This document shows positions 484 to 19,576 of a stretch of DNA of 36,207 nucleotides, in pieces. Source of the DNA: Myxococcales bacterium. GTDB taxonomy: Bacteria > Myxococcota_A > Polyangia > Polyangiales > Houyiibacteriaceae. A model generated the notes under the pieces. It saw only the letters and a list, made by a program, of their open reading frames with translations, did no database searches and had not been told where the DNA came from. Within the stretch, counting starts at the first letter, position 1; each line of letters begins with the position of its first letter. The stretch covers positions 1 to 36,207 of the forward strand of contig JAHELW010000009.1 of NCBI GenBank assembly GCA_024643985.1, read 5' to 3'. The position numbers were made by a program, and so were the translations under genes.

Positions 484-3462
484 CTAGGCGCGTGCCGCTG
501 GGCCGGGGCGAGCCGACGCTTCGTAGCGTTCTTTCGCGTCGTCATAGGTGAGAAGCTCGGCCGCGGCGTCGAGGGGCTGGCGCTCGAGGGCGGACTTGTC
601 CGGCCGAAAGCCGTCGGTCATCGGAATCTGCTCGACCCGCTTCACCCAAAGCGGACGCTCTGCCGGGTCCAGCTCCGAGGCGAACCGATTCCACGCCTGC
701 AAATCGATGGCTCGATTCTCGCGCGTCGCCACCACCGCGACCGGCCGGTCACGGCCGTCTTGCTCGACGCCGTAGACGACCGTGTGCCGCAAGGGAGGGA
801 AGCCGTAGAGCGCATCCTCGATCGATCGCGTCGCCACCCACCCGTGAGCCGTTCGAAGCATGCGGCTCACTCGATCGACGAACCAGAAGTCGCCATCGTC
901 GTCGCGACGAAGCACGTCCCACGTGACGAACCAATGGTCATCGGGCTCGCGCACACCCTGGACGAGCCGGTTCCCCGCCTCCGCACCTCCGGTGAAGCTC
1001 GCCATCGGATGCTGCGCGTCGAGCTTCGCCAGGAGCACGCCGTCATCGCCGGGCTCGCAGCGTTGCAAGAGACCTCGGTCGTCCCGCGAGAACTCGCGAC
1101 GATCGAAATCGTATCGCACGAGCTCGACCTCGGCGCTGCCCGGCAGCGGACGGCCGAGCGCGCCCACCTTTTCTCCGGACGCGTTCGCCAAGACCGCGTT
1201 GCCTTCGGTCGAAGCATAGAACTCGAGAATGCCCACGGGACCAAACCGCTCGACGATGCGCTGCCACACGTCGGCGCGAAGGCCGCTGCCCGCAAAGAGT
1301 CGAATCGGGTTCTGGTTGTCGATCGACGAAGGCGGCGCGCAAAGGAGCTCGCGGAGCATCTCGCCCGCGTAGAAGACGACGGTCGCGCCGTAGCGGCGGA
1401 CGTCTTCCCAGAACATCTCGGGGTCGAGCTTGTCTGCGAGCGCCAAGCGGGAGCCCCCGACGAGCCCTCCTCCGACCGTCACCAGCATGCCCGCGGGATG
1501 GTGGAGCGGGAGGCAGCAATACACCGTGTCCCTCGGCGACAGCGTGCACGCGGCTGCCGTGCCGTAAGCGGAAAACGCCCACCGCTGATTGGTGATCTTG
1601 GCGGCGCGCGGCTTTCGGCCGCGGCCCGCCGTGAGCATGATGAGCGCGAGATCGCGAGCGCAGCCAGGGTTCTCCTCGTACCAACCCGGGAGCTCCACCG
1701 AGTCGGGGTCGATCTGCTCCATGTCGACGACGCCGGTGGGCAGGCTTCGCGCCTCGTTGGCTCCACCGAGAACGAGCACCTCGCCCGAGAGGTCTTTGCC
1801 GAGCGCCGCGTTTTCCGGATCGGTCACGAGGAAGCGTGGCGCCGACGCGTGAATCGCATCTTCGAGCGTCTCCCGCGACCGCGCCGGGCTCAGCAGGATC
1901 GGAACCGCGCCGAGCCGGCTCAACGCCGCGGTGACGGAGAGGTAGCTCGGGCGCGGCCCCATCAGGACGGCAACGGAGTCGCCACGCCGGACACCGCAGC
2001 GAATCAGCCCGCGAACGACGTTGTCGACGCGCCGATCGGCCTCGGCGTAGGAAAACGCCCGGCCCTCCCAAAGAAAGAACGTCCCTTCGGGATGCGAGGT
2101 CGCTTGCTCCGACAGCGCGAGCCCGAGACTGATGCGGGTGTCGGGGGTCATTTGTTGAAGCACGCTCAGACGCGGCACCTGCCACCGGAAGCTGTCGAGC
2201 TGCTCACCGAGATCGGTCGCCGCGCGTCCGAGACGCTGCCACCAGGCGCCCACGGTCCCCGTGACCGTCTCGTAGAAGAGCCGCACGTCGAAATCGACGT
2301 CGTCGAATCGCGCTTCTTCAGGTTCTTCGAGCGGCGGCGGCCTATGAAGCGCGGCCGGCTCCGGCCCCGCTCTTTCTCGCCAGCGCACCCAGCCCGCGAC
2401 GGTCGGCCAGGTAAACGACATCGCTTGCTTACCGACCACCAAACCGAAGTGCCCGGCCCGCATGGCGACCTCGAAAAGCTCGGCTTGGGGAGCTGCGCCG
2501 CGGATCGCGCGGATCGCCGACTCGTTTGCGATCGTGTCCCGCTCGCCGACGAAGAAAAGGACCGGGCAGCGAATGTCCGTCAACGTCACGGTGCGCCCAT
2601 CGATGACGAAGCCGCCGGAAAGCATCCGGTTGTGCACGACGAACTCGTCGATGAAGGTCTTGAGCGCAGGCCCCGGCCACGCGACGAAGCCCTCACCGCC
2701 GAGAAAACGCCGTCGCGCCTCACGCTTTTCGAGCGCCTGCCGGTCGTGGAGCTTGCGGACGAAGTCGATGAGCTGGCCGACCTCTTTGTGGACCGCGAGG
2801 AGCTTGAAACCGGTGCTCGTCAGAAAACCCGGCAACCCCTCGAGCCTGTCGATCGGCGCATCGATCGCGCCCTGGGCGAGCTCGAAGACGCGGCCTGCGA
2901 TGGTGTCGTCGATCATCGGAAGGTTTCGATGAATGTCGACGGGGCTTCCGAACGTGACGAGCGAGGCAATGCCCTCGGACTCCCGATACGCGGCGGTCTG
3001 ATAGGCGAACATGCCTCCCTGGGAGTACCCCATCAGATGCACATCGCGGCCGGTCGCCTCGCGTACCAGGTCGACCGCGCCGCTCACCGCTTTGACGTGA
3101 TCGTCGAAGGTGCGCTTCATGCCGCCCTCTTCCTGCTCGGGCGAGCCAAAGTCGATGACCCATACGTCGAGCCCGAGCCCGACGAGAGCCCCCACCCCAC
3201 TGATGTCCGGTGAGACGTCGTAGATCTCCGCGGTCACCATGAGTGGAGGGATCAGGAGCACCGGCGCATCGACCGTCGGACGATGGTTTTCTCCGCCGTA
3301 GCGGCGCAGCCGCGCGAACGAGACATCACGGACGACCTTGTAGGGAGCGTGCTCCGGATCGGTGAAGTGTCCTAGACGCGCCAGCTCGAGCGCGTTTTCC
3401 GTCGCCATGGCGACACGCCGAAACGGCGCCCGCCAGTCGAATTTTCGGCCGGTTCCTGCCAT
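484..3462 (-). CDS. PhaC/lipase-like alpha/beta hydrolase fused to acyl-CoA synthetase (Rv1683-like)
   Basis: A 992-residue two-domain protein. Residues about 40-365 form an alpha/beta hydrolase of the polyhydroxyalkanoate-synthase type: the elbow is GYSQGG (Ser147), with a candidate acid in GERDT (Asp309) and His in AGHFG (His338). PhaC enzymes carry Cys at the elbow, so Ser points to lipase or thioesterase chemistry. Residues about 440-975 are an AMP-binding (ANL) domain, with YASTEGN for motif A5, GDFWFVDR for A7, a DRVSRML hinge and a C-terminal PMTDGFRPDKS lysine motif. The A3 phosphate loop is degenerate (LTAGRGRKPRAAK instead of a TSGTTGxPK form). Length and domain order match, from memory, mycobacterial Rv1683, a lipid-droplet-associated enzyme of triacylglycerol turnover. 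Role here by analogy: storage-lipid metabolism. The start at 3462 lies only 10 bp from the divergent start; Met19 (3408) is an alternative. Confidence 0.85.
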   Translation of the reverse strand: MAGTGRKFDWRAPFRRVAMATENALELARLGHFTDPEHAPYKVVRDVSFARLRRYGGENHRPTVDAPVLLIPPLMVTAEIYDVSPDISGVGALVGLGLDVWVIDFGSPEQEEGGMKRTFDDHVKAVSGAVDLVREATGRDVHLMGYSQGGMFAYQTAAYRESEGIASLVTFGSPVDIHRNLPMIDDTIAGRVFELAQGAIDAPIDRLEGLPGFLTSTGFKLLAVHKEVGQLIDFVRKLHDRQALEKREARRRFLGGEGFVAWPGPALKTFIDEFVVHNRMLSGGFVIDGRTVTLTDIRCPVLFFVGERDTIANESAIRAIRGAAPQAELFEVAMRAGHFGLVVGKQAMSFTWPTVAGWVRWRERAGPEPAALHRPPPLEEPEEARFDDVDFDVRLFYETVTGTVGAWWQRLGRAATDLGEQLDSFRWQVPRLSVLQQMTPDTRISLGLALSEQATSHPEGTFFLWEGRAFSYAEADRRVDNVVRGLIRCGVRRGDSVAVLMGPRPSYLSVTAALSRLGAVPILLSPARSRETLEDAIHASAPRFLVTDPENAALGKDLSGEVLVLGGANEARSLPTGVVDMEQIDPDSVELPGWYEENPGCARDLALIMLTAGRGRKPRAAKITNQRWAFSAYGTAAACTLSPRDTVYCCLPLHHPAGMLVTVGGGLVGGSRLALADKLDPEMFWEDVRRYGATVVFYAGEMLRELLCAPPSSIDNQNPIRLFAGSGLRADVWQRIVERFGPVGILEFYASTEGNAVLANASGEKVGALGRPLPGSAEVELVRYDFDRREFSRDDRGLLQRCEPGDDGVLLAKLDAQHPMASFTGGAEAGNRLVQGVREPDDHWFVTWDVLRRDDDGDFWFVDRVSRMLRTAHGWVATRSIEDALYGFPPLRHTVVYGVEQDGRDRPVAVVATRENRAIDLQAWNRFASELDPAERPLWVKRVEQIPMTDGFRPDKSALERQPLDAAAELLTYDDAKERYEASARPGPAARA

Positions 3463-13775: not shown

Positions 13776-14570
13776 ATGCCGATTACTGAAGCCTTCAGCG
13801 ACTCCTTACGAGCGCATCCTCTATACACTTGGGCAGTCCTCGGCATCATCATGCTCGGAGTCGTGAGCTTCGTGCTCCTTTTGTTCATCTCGGCGCCGTA
13901 CGGACGGCACCTTCGCCCGGGCTGGGGCCCTACGATCAACGCAACGGCGCTTTGGGTCATCATGGAGGCGCCGTCTCCCATCTCGTTCGCGTTCGTCTAC
14001 TTCATGTCCGACAGGGCGTTCGAGACGGTGCCGCTGATTCTGTTCGGCATGTTCATGCTGCACTACGTGTACCGCTCGTTCATCTATCCGTTCCGGATGC
14101 GCGGGGGTCACAAGCGAAAGCCGCTCGTCACGGGTGGGCTGGCGTTTGCCTTCAACGTCGCGAACGGCTCCACCAATGCATTCGCGATCACCGAGCTCGC
14201 CCCTCACCTCTGGAGCACGGCGTGGCTGAACGATCCCCGTTTCATCCTCGGCGTCGCCGTCTTTTTCACGGGTTTCGCGATCAACCAGCACTCGGATGCA
14301 GTGCTCCGAAACCTCCGAAAGCCTGGCGAAAGCGGCTACAAGATCCCCTACGGCGGGCTCTATCGGTGGCTCTCGAGCCCGAACTACTTCGGCGAGATCG
14401 TCGAGTGGATCGGTTTCGCCGTCGCCGCGTGGACGGTCCCAGCCTGGGTTTTCGCCTGGTTCACGGCAACCAACCTCATTCCACGCGCGTTTTCGAACCA
14501 TCGCTGGTATCTCGAGCACTTCAGCGACTACCCGAAAAACCGGCGCGCGATCATTCCTTTTCTGCTTTAG
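13776..14570 (+). CDS. Steroid 5-alpha-reductase family membrane protein
   Basis: 264 residues with several hydrophobic helices and the C-terminal signature of 3-oxo-5-alpha-steroid 4-dehydrogenases: LHYVYRSFIYPFRMRGG, then INQHSDAVLRNLRKPGESG, YKIPYGGLYRWLSSPNYFG, EIVEWIGFA and a final YPKNRRAIIPFLL. These segments resemble human SRD5A1/2 strongly, including the NADPH-binding His/Asn/Arg-rich part and the total length, rather than the looser bacterial DUF1295 proteins. The family reduces the C4-C5 double bond of 3-oxo-4-ene steroids with NADPH in a membrane. Substrate here could be a sterol intermediate or an enone lipid. Similarity is seen directly; the substrate is inferred. Shine-Dalgarno is weak. 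It lies divergent to thpR and 78 bp before the TPR gene. Confidence 0.88.
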   Translation: MPITEAFSDSLRAHPLYTWAVLGIIMLGVVSFVLLLFISAPYGRHLRPGWGPTINATALWVIMEAPSPISFAFVYFMSDRAFETVPLILFGMFMLHYVYRSFIYPFRMRGGHKRKPLVTGGLAFAFNVANGSTNAFAITELAPHLWSTAWLNDPRFILGVAVFFTGFAINQHSDAVLRNLRKPGESGYKIPYGGLYRWLSSPNYFGEIVEWIGFAVAAWTVPAWVFAWFTATNLIPRAFSNHRWYLEHFSDYPKNRRAIIPFLL

Positions 14571-17090: not shown

Positions 17091-18224
17091 TCAGTCGACG
17101 TCGGCGAGAAGACCGGACATGCGCTCGACCGCGTCGATGTACTCGCTGACCATCTCCTCGACGATCTGGCGCGCCGGCTTTCGCGTGTTCATTTGACCGA
17201 CGACCTGTCCGACAGGCGTGCCGAGCAGCGCAGCGGAGCCCTCGGTCCCGCCCTGCGCAAAGCGCGTGATGCGCTGGGTCGCCTCTGCGGTGGCCATGAA
17301 CTGAAGCGGCATCGGCAAGAAGCCCGGGCAATCTGGATCTTCCTCCCAGGCGCGCGTGTACTCGGTCTTGAGCTGGCGGGCAGGTTTGCCGCTGATGGCG
17401 CGCGAGCGGATCGTCTTCGTGGAATCAGCGACGAGCAGCTTGTCGACGAGCGCTGGAATCGAGTCGGACTCCTCGGTCGTGAGCCAAATCGAGCCGGTCC
17501 AGACTCCGGCTGCACCCATCGCCATGGCCGCGGCCATCTGCCTTCCGGAGCCGATGCCGCCCGCGGCAAGCACGGGCGTCGGCGCAACGGCGTCGACGAC
17601 CTGCGGGAGCAACACCATCGTGCCGATTTCGCCGGTGTGGCCGCCGGCTTCGTACCCTGACGCAATCACGATGTCGACGCCGGCGTTCTTCTGCTTGACC
17701 GCTTGCCTCACGGTGCCACACAGCGCAGCCACCATGACGCCTTTGTCGTGCGCCTGACTGATGATGTCTTCTGGAGGCGGACCGAGCGCGTTGGCGATCA
17801 GCGCGATCGGATGATTCATCGCGACCTCGAAATGCGCGCGGCCGCCGGCCGCGGACCAGCCGAGCAGGCCCTCGATTTGCTCGACGTCGTCGGGGAGCGG
17901 AGGAACGCCGAACTTGTCGAGCAGGTCGTTGATCCACTTGCGGTGCGCAGGCGTGATCATCTGCTCGAGCTGTTCTTTCGAGACGTCGCCCTGGTCCTTG
18001 CCGATGTACTTCGCCGGAATGACGGTATCGACGCCGTAAGGTTTCCCGTCGACGTGCTCGTCGATCCACTTCAGCTCGAGCTCGAGCTGCTCCGGGCTGT
18101 AGGCCACCGCGCCCAGCACTCCGAGCCCGCCGGCCCGGCTCACCGCTGCCACGACGTCGCGGCAATGACTGAAGGCAAAGATCGGAAACTCGATCCCAAG
18201 CCGCTCACAAATCTCGGTCTTCAT
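17091..18224 (-). CDS. Nitronate monooxygenase family FMN-dependent oxidoreductase
   Basis: 377 residues from the ATG at 18224 (MKTEICERLG); the track start at 18254 is a GTG that adds an unlikely N-terminus. The TIM-barrel flavoprotein shows the NMO/2-nitropropane dioxygenase landmarks: FAFSHCRDVVAAVSRAGGLGVLG at the N-terminus, ASGYEAGGHTGE in the middle and the FMN phosphate loop VLAAGGIGSGRQMAAAMAMGA. True nitronate oxidases use FMN and O2, but many relatives act as enoyl or enone reductases in lipid and steroid catabolism; mycobacterial IpdC and Rv1533-type proteins belong to this group. The upstream palindrome fits a KstR-type operator, favouring a lipid or steroid role over nitronate detoxification. 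That choice is inference. Confidence 0.85.
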   Translation of the reverse strand: MKTEICERLGIEFPIFAFSHCRDVVAAVSRAGGLGVLGAVAYSPEQLELELKWIDEHVDGKPYGVDTVIPAKYIGKDQGDVSKEQLEQMITPAHRKWINDLLDKFGVPPLPDDVEQIEGLLGWSAAGGRAHFEVAMNHPIALIANALGPPPEDIISQAHDKGVMVAALCGTVRQAVKQKNAGVDIVIASGYEAGGHTGEIGTMVLLPQVVDAVAPTPVLAAGGIGSGRQMAAAMAMGAAGVWTGSIWLTTEESDSIPALVDKLLVADSTKTIRSRAISGKPARQLKTEYTRAWEEDPDCPGFLPMPLQFMATAEATQRITRFAQGGTEGSAALLGTPVGQVVGQMNTRKPARQIVEEMVSEYIDAVERMSGLLADVD

Positions 18225-18260
18225 CCAAACACCCGTCCAACCCCACGAAAACACGGCCGG

Positions 18261-18293
18261 AAAACGGGGTCAGACCCCGTTTTCGAGGGGTTA
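18261..18293. repeat. Second copy of GGGGTC-type palindrome
   Basis: Arms AAAACGGGGTC and GACCCCGTTTT (18261-18271 and 18273-18283) flank a single A, followed by CGAGGGGTTAA. The core and this right flank match the palindrome near 9250, but the left AACCCCTCG arm is missing, so this is a shorter or decayed unit. It lies between the KstR-like palindrome and the start of the flavoprotein gene, within its probable leader. Confidence 0.8.
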
Positions 18294-18295
18294 AA

Positions 18296-18317
18296 AAAAT
18301 AGAACGTGTTCTATTTT
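18296..18317. promoter_or_regulatory. KstR-like operator palindrome upstream of flavoprotein gene
   Basis: Perfect 10-bp arms AAAATAGAAC and GTTCTATTTT flank GT. The central TAGAACGTGTTCTA matches the mycobacterial KstR consensus TNNAACNNGTTNNA at every fixed position. It lies 72 bp upstream of the flavoprotein ATG and 27 bp after the upstream lipoprotein stop, in an AT-rich island. On the minus strand it is followed by a run of T, so a weak intrinsic terminator for the upstream gene is the alternative. No TetR-family gene is in the window. Confidence 0.6.
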
Positions 18318-18343
18318 GACGGGTCGAGCGCCGCGAGTCAACC

Positions 18344-19576
18344 CTATTGCAGGCCGTCGTCGACCAGGTCGTCCCAGACCTGGGTGCCCTCGATGTGCGC
18401 GGTCACCCAATCGAGGACGGTGACCCCCGAGATCTCGACGTCGAGGCCCCCGCCGTCCGGCTCGGCCATCTCGGTGAGGAGGAAGGTGTGGGCGGTGCCC
18501 TCCGCGATGAACCGCTTGTAGCGGTCCTCGTAGAGCATCGTGGTCCGGCCGGTCTCCGCGAGAAGGGACTCGGTGAACTGGGCGGGAGGGATCATCAGGA
18601 AAAACGTCCCGATGACCGCGTCCGCGCTGAAGCTGAGGGCACTGATCGTGAAGTTGTCGTCGGCTTCGAGCTGCCACTCGATGAGCCGCGTCACGTGCCC
18701 GTTGCTCGTACAGTCCGTACAGGAGTCCGGCACGAGCGAAGTGGCGTTCCAGCCGGCGAGAAGCGTCTCGTCGACGAAGTCCGGATTGCCTTCTTTGGCC
18801 ACCCCCACCCCGGAGTCGTTGATCACGACGATTTCGGTCTCCGGATAATAGAAGCGTACCAACGGCAGCGCGACGATGGTGCCAAAGGCGCCGCCGCTGA
18901 TGCCGGTGAGCACGATGCGCCCGGGGTTCGGGAACTGCTCGAGGCCGATGTCGAGGGCCGCGGTGAGGTTTTGAAGGCCGCGCTGATAGGCCTGACTTTC
19001 CCCGGGCTCGCCTTCTCCAACGACACTGTTCGGAAGGACCCTATCGACGTCGCCCGCAAAGAGCGCGCCGTCGCAATAAGGCAGATAGAGAACGTCCCAG
19101 TCGGCGAGCGGATTGCCCTCGAAGGCCGGATTCAGAATGCCGGTCGGCGGCAGCGAGTTGGTCACCTCGAACGCGGAGCAGAAATCCTCCCAGCACGCCC
19201 CGCCGCCCTGAAGATAAATCACGAGGTCATCCGATGTGCCCTCCCGCGTGTCGACCGTGAACTCCGTCCCCCGCAGACAGAGCGGCCCGCGCGGTTCCTC
19301 GAGCGGCTCGGCCGGAACCGAGAACGTATGCGTGATGACGTCGCCTGCCTGCTTTGCCGCACCGCTGCTCTCCGGCGTGAACATCCCCACGTACTTCGTG
19401 AGCCCCTGGTCGTAGAGCTCTTCAAAGCTCGGTGCCGGCGCACCGCCGCCACCACCGGCTCCGCCTGCGCCACCGGAACCGCCGGTTCCAGCGGTTCCCG
19501 ACGTCCCGCTATCGCTGCCACAACCCACGAGCGCAACGACTGCGCTCAAACCCAAAGCCAAGACACCTGATCTCAT
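18344..19576 (-). CDS. Pectinacetylesterase-family lipoprotein
   Basis: 410 residues. A signal sequence ends in lipobox VALVGC, followed by a Ser/Gly spacer (GTAGTGGSGGAGGAGGGG) and then the catalytic region. Family landmarks are LVIYLQGGGACW, the Cys-bearing VLYLPYCDGALFAGD, the nucleophile elbow LTGISGGAFGT, and VVINDSGVGV with CTDCTSNGHVTR as the likely His region. These match the pectinacetylesterase/Notum-like hydrolase family (CE13), serine hydrolases that remove acyl groups from carbohydrates or, in Notum, from proteins. Substrate here cannot be told. The start is supported by GCGGAGGA five bases before the ATG. The GGAGGA, lipobox and Gly spacer indicate an exported, membrane-tethered enzyme. 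It is divergent from the outer-membrane-protein gene. Confidence 0.8.
   Translation of the reverse strand: MRSGVLALGLSAVVALVGCGSDSGTSGTAGTGGSGGAGGAGGGGGAPAPSFEELYDQGLTKYVGMFTPESSGAAKQAGDVITHTFSVPAEPLEEPRGPLCLRGTEFTVDTREGTSDDLVIYLQGGGACWEDFCSAFEVTNSLPPTGILNPAFEGNPLADWDVLYLPYCDGALFAGDVDRVLPNSVVGEGEPGESQAYQRGLQNLTAALDIGLEQFPNPGRIVLTGISGGAFGTIVALPLVRFYYPETEIVVINDSGVGVAKEGNPDFVDETLLAGWNATSLVPDSCTDCTSNGHVTRLIEWQLEADDNFTISALSFSADAVIGTFFLMIPPAQFTESLLAETGRTTMLYEDRYKRFIAEGTAHTFLLTEMAEPDGGGLDVEISGVTVLDWVTAHIEGTQVWDDLVDDGLQ

Follow-up and report, generated by a model that had tools for sequence, protein, structure and literature searches.

Sequence comparison lends strong support to a KstR-type operator and regulon in the phylum Myxococcota, where the mechanism would be ordinary and the location unusual. 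KstR is the actinobacterial repressor of cholesterol breakdown, and is tied to the growth of M. tuberculosis on host cholesterol. The window analysed here, a stretch of 36,207 nucleotides from a Myxococcales bacterium, holds a palindrome in front of a flavoprotein gene of the nitronate monooxygenase (NMO) family. We consider it highly probable that this palindrome is the putative operator of a KstR-type TetR repressor, and it is very probably one of about a dozen sites fronting steroid-degradation genes in the source genome. Because so many sites front steroid genes here, a KstR-type circuit appears to exist well outside the actinobacteria. The first-pass annotation of this DNA had suggested such a regulon, and the suggestion is now supported by the recurrent steroid-gene sites, a genus-wide motif and a TetR protein of the lineage that stands nearest to KstR. 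A search of the open-access literature, with subscription journals outside its range, turned up nothing about KstR or the breakdown of sterols in Myxococcota.

The palindrome is a 22-bp perfect inverted repeat, AAAATAGAAC-GT-GTTCTATTTT (that is, AAAATAGAACGTGTTCTATTTT), with 10-bp arms, exactly as first described. Its core, TAGAACGTGTTCTA, also agrees with the KstR consensus as had been claimed, being the sole match to TNNAACNNGTTNNA in the 36-kb window, where 0.06 are expected. One match was found in 6 of 100 shuffled windows. Taken alone, the single match is only mildly unusual; its genome-wide recurrence is not chance. The core is identical to the TAGAAC-N2-GTTCTA sequence of the M. tuberculosis kstR promoter, which is the operator of KstR itself and partly overlaps the -10 box (PMC1995591). 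Orthologues do not preserve the palindromic form of the outer A4/T4 arms: they retain the CAAAAT side, which belongs to the -10 box, but not the opposite side.

The operator lies in a conserved promoter, TTGACT-17-CAAAAT, overlapping its -10 box by one base, and a promoter scan gave one promoter-like site here against a mean of 0.0 in shuffles. Of 17 orthologous NMO promoters, 15 have a TTGAC -35 box with the spacing unchanged, and the -10 box runs into the operator. The operator itself is kept in all 17 scorable NMO orthologues of the window's genus and of a second genus of the family (g8), as well as in genome G019, where the site touches the ATG. One genome of a third genus (G007, g6) has the NMO gene and no operator upstream of it. 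The site had been placed 72 bp upstream of the gene; the upstream position stands, and the ATG supported by orthologues, at 18224, gives 75 bp. Table 1 lists the features of this region.

Table 1. Features around the putative operator (positions in the window).
Feature	Position	Strand	Remarks
NMO-family flavoprotein gene, 377 aa	17091..18224	-	Target of the putative operator; IpdC/FabK paralogue
Strong hairpin GAAAACGGGGTCAGACCCCGTTTT	18260..18283	none	Leader segment separating the operator from its gene; looks like an inserted repeat
Full 22-bp palindrome, 10-bp arms	18296..18317	none	Outer AAAA/TTTT partly -10 box
KstR-type operator core TAGAACGTGTTCTA	18300..18313	none	Sole match in the window; kept before all readable NMO orthologues of the genus
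-10-like hexamer CAAAAT	18313..18318	-	Ends on the operator's first base; conserved; promoter scan
-35-like hexamer TTGACT	18336..18341	-	17-bp spacer; just past the esterase stop codon
Pectinacetylesterase-family gene	18344..19576	-	Upstream, same strand; neighbour, not target

The leader hairpin has a predicted energy of -17 kcal/mol. Similar inserts stand at the same place in two related genomes (G016 and G020) and are absent from two others (G014 and G022). Its core recurs in three further loci (L009, L085 and L164), and the element looks like a small dispersed repeat.

The product of the gene behind the operator belongs to the NMO family (PF03060, E 3e-49), which also holds the IpdC, FabK and nitronate monooxygenase flavoproteins. 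Its orthologues are 70-95% identical and are confined to three genera of the family that bear sites, namely the window's genus, g6 and g8. The protein shares 29% identity, over part of its length, with what we take to be the M. tuberculosis IpdC sequence, whereas a separate gene of the lineage, beside ipdAB, is 55-58% identical to it. The window gene was thus rejected as IpdC, since the distinct gene of the ipd operon fits far better. Because the lineage has this separate IpdC-like gene in its ipd operon, the window gene is read as an IpdC paralogue, a second NMO-family gene outside that operon. The first-pass description, a flavoprotein with steroid-pathway relatives, is right as to the family and does not extend to IpdC, the known steroid enzyme in it. 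The steroid 5-alpha-reductase homologue noted in the same genome was borne out (13776-14570; PF02544, E 3e-48). The window also encodes, at 484-3462 on the minus strand, a 992-aa fusion of a PhaC-like alpha/beta hydrolase with an acyl-CoA synthetase, which exceeds the cut-off of NCBIfam PRK07868 (990.8 vs 925).

The source assembly comprises 3.52 Mb and is 80.6% complete. It was scanned as a whole with the reversed motif as control and with gene calls from a simple codon model, and the motif was found to recur in front of steroid genes. The strict form, TAGAACNNGTTCTA, occurs at 3 sites against 0 for the control, and TRRAACNNGTTYYA, which also allows the half-site TGAAAC, at 12 against 1. The half-site TGAAAC is likewise in use in M. 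tuberculosis, where AATGAAACGTGTTCTAGCCT is a verified KstR site (PMC1995591). It describes the real extra sites better than a one-mismatch search, which added two unconvincing sites in or beside unrelated genes. The two strict sites other than the window operator lie in front of a P450, which among solved proteins best matches the CYP125/CYP142 steroid C26-monooxygenases (E 7e-72), and a 3-ketosteroid delta-1-dehydrogenase (KstD; E 3e-148 to 3-oxosteroid 1-dehydrogenase). Further sites are followed by a KshA-like Rieske gene, a KshB-like reductase gene, an HsaB-like reductase (by best NCBIfam match), a DUF35-like gene with an Ltp-type thiolase, a thiolase and FadB-like pair, an acyl-CoA dehydrogenase pair, an Rv3520c-family oxidoreductase, and an operon of a CurA-like reductase, an SDR and an acyl-CoA dehydrogenase; the Ltp-type thiolase and the Rv3520c-family protein score over their cut-offs. 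Genes for the sterol side chain and for rings A and B are thereby represented downstream of sites. One of the 12 sites adjoins a PaaX-like gene without a clear steroid role. This regulator gene (L151 4154-5028, source contig C21), with a TAGAACGCGTTTCA site 45 bp upstream, could be a second-tier regulator of the regulon.

The same pattern extends to related genomes, which, within one genus, are related rather than independent samples. Strict TAGAACNNGTTCTA sites occur in all 19 genomes of the window's genus, at 2-6 each (79 sites vs 3 in the control). Genera g6 and g8 carry 5-13 strict sites, and the remaining genera of the family 0 or 1. The ipdA orthologue is confined to the same three genera as the NMO orthologue and the sites. 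Directly behind the relatives' sites lie genes for KstD, CYP125/142-like P450s, KshA-like and KshB-like proteins, HsaA, HsaB, HsaC and HsaD types, acyl-CoA dehydrogenases and GMC oxidoreductases, together with the NMO gene. Among 300 half-sites (150 distinct sites), only TAGAAC, TGAAAC and TGGAAC were seen; TAAAAC, though permitted by the pattern, was found in none of the 300. The central half-site base is a purine in 95% of them.

A candidate for the repressor is present in these relatives. With M. tuberculosis KstR as the query (sequence verified identical to PDB 5AQC), a TetR protein of about 192 aa, 30-33% identical to KstR, was found in 14 of the 19 genus genomes, including each of the 10 whose completeness reaches 90%; the five without it are all at most 81% complete. 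Its gene closes an operon of SCP2-, DUF35-, thiolase-, thiolase-, FadD- and KshA-like genes, which starts behind a TAGAACACGTTTCA or TAGAACGTGTTCTA site. Against PDB sequences, the TetR profile gave KstR 104 bits, the next match 76 and others up to 47. The NCBIfam KstR model (NF033703 equivalog) is the best of all models for it, at 125.5 bits, below the equivalog cut-off of 280 bits. The predicted structure (pLDDT 90) is a full-length TetR fold whose top 17 Foldseek matches are all KstR; DNA-bound KstR, on a 26-bp operator, matches it at 1.9-2.3 Å, and its helix-turn-helix closely resembles that of KstR (VALGTVYKRF against VAVGTLYRYF).

A profile scan of 85,462 named genomes gave 68 tetR loci. 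Nearly all belong to Myxococcota or 'Deltaproteobacteria'; they include cultured Nannocystis species and 'Myxococcales bacterium SG8_38', whose tetR lies at L117 10035-10613. Around the tetR genes of these loci (882 kb), TRRAACNNGTTYYA occurs 73 times against 1 in the control, and in 22 of 67 loci the tetR start is preceded by a site at no more than 250 bp (control 0). In the relatives, sites are thus found before tetR itself or at the start of its operon, and such clustering would be expected if an autoregulated repressor read the motif. In several genera that encode the TetR protein, the sites near tetR are imperfect or absent altogether. One- or two-mismatch sites precede the KshA-like Rieske gene near tetR at L140 720-733, L177 6422 and L176 8845, in genera without perfect sites; these may reflect a smaller regulon of few genes, and only some of the tetR-bearing family members without perfect sites have them. 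Two tandem KstR-type sites, 20 bp apart, precede the P450-kstR operon in Nannocystis pusilla (L205 6499-6532) and N. exedens DSM 71 (L213 6504-6537); the host makes sterols, and the arrangement perhaps links their making and breaking. Very similar kstR-like loci, with a site before a DUF35/thiolase-like operon, occur in the MAGs Proteobacteria NIOZ-UU50 (L189) and UBP10 UBA1149 (L201), so that the circuit may extend beyond Myxococcota.

The KstR-like TetR gene foreseen by the first-pass annotation is therefore present in relatives, usually in the same operons, and is missing from the source assembly. Among the 17 TetR genes of that 80.6%-complete assembly there is no kstR orthologue (best score 46 bits), and DNA of the 15-kb kstR/hsa region, taken from G016, gave only weak matches of paralogue type in the source genome. 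Since the whole surrounding 15-kb region is missing, and since no genus genome lacking kstR is more than 81% complete, we read the absence as a probable assembly gap, with loss less likely, and the gene is inferred from relatives.

Other explanations of the palindrome were weighed against a KstR-type operator. The palindrome lies shortly downstream of the esterase stop codon and could form an AT-rich hairpin with seven T in a row after it on the minus strand, which would suit an intrinsic terminator of that gene. This role was rejected and is very improbable: the hairpin is weak (-4.5 to -5.1 kcal/mol), a scan gave no terminator-like site, the T run is not conserved among orthologues, and G020 keeps the site though a divergent gene, not the esterase, stands upstream there. 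A chance palindrome without function, for which the matches in shuffled windows could be cited, has a probability close to nil; it is already refuted because the operator is conserved in orthologous promoters, 18 in all, nearly always at a fixed distance from the -35 box, and the genome-wide excess over the control also speaks against it.

The motif might instead belong to a different regulator (another TetR, or a LexA-like or FadR-like protein) that happens to govern lipid genes, and the lack of a KstR-like gene in the source assembly, as well as the PaaX-like gene and general beta-oxidation genes among the targets, would agree with this. We nevertheless judge it very improbable: across many species the motif gathers around the KstR-like tetR gene (73 sites against 1 in the control), frequently within the promoter of tetR itself, the targets are steroid-specific enzymes, and no other solved structure comes nearly as close to the TetR protein as KstR does. 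LexA boxes, moreover, have GAAC/GTTC halves spaced by 4, not 2. The operator of a KstR-type repressor remains the preferred reading: the motif occurs well beyond this promoter, is no terminator and precedes genes with a steroid theme.

The proposed mechanism starts from the operator's overlap with the -10 box of the conserved NMO-gene promoter. Without sterols, a repressor dimer would cover the -10 and start region and block RNA polymerase. By analogy with KstR, a sterol-derived CoA thioester may free the repressor, and its release would switch on both the pathway and the NMO-family enzyme. On balance, we favour a wider model, in which a single myxococcal KstR-type repressor runs the entire aerobic sterol pathway, including rings C and D, the NMO flavoenzyme is a new step, and the operator has stayed conserved across phyla despite divergence of the repressor to about 31% identity. 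An operator, a close functional counterpart of KstR and its target set in Myxococcota would make the circuit older or more mobile than thought, and would mark an uncultured lineage as probable sterol degraders. The motif could serve as a tool for finding unrecognised steroid genes in the lineage, the NMO gene among them, and cultured Nannocystis strains carry kstR-like loci with such sites.

Compared with KstR (Rv3574) of M. tuberculosis and M. smegmatis, the myxococcal system shares the operator sequence TAGAACNNGTTCTA / TGAAACNNGTTCTA, which overlaps or adjoins the -10 box; an autoregulatory arrangement is common to both, and the TetR protein has the same fold and KstR as its closest sequence. 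The target kinds are also shared: CYP125/142-type P450, KstD, KshAB, Hsa, Ltp, Rv3520c-type oxidoreductase and acyl-CoA dehydrogenases. The myxococcal system differs in belonging to another phylum, with a TetR protein about 31% identical to KstR and below the NCBIfam KstR cut-off. Its operons are dispersed over the genome and include the ipd operon and a second NMO-family gene, and in the window's genus kstR lies inside the KshA-like operon, not facing fadE34.

In M. tuberculosis, the ipd (ring C/D) operon is under KstR2 (PMC5380842). As in the KstR2 regulon (ring C/D, HIP genes; Rv3551-Rv3553, fadD3, kstR2), ipdA, ipdB and the IpdC-like gene are clustered in the myxococcal genomes, and the cluster likewise holds two acyl-CoA dehydrogenases, a thiolase and an EchA-like gene. 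Among the 16 genomes having DNA upstream of the ipd operon, AnCAAGnnCTTGnT, presumably the KstR2-type motif, occurs there in none, and a KstR-type site (TGAAACGCGTTTCA or TGAAACGNGTTCTA) in 15. Unlike that of actinobacteria, the myxococcal ring-C/D operon, with no KstR2-type motif, bears the KstR-type site.
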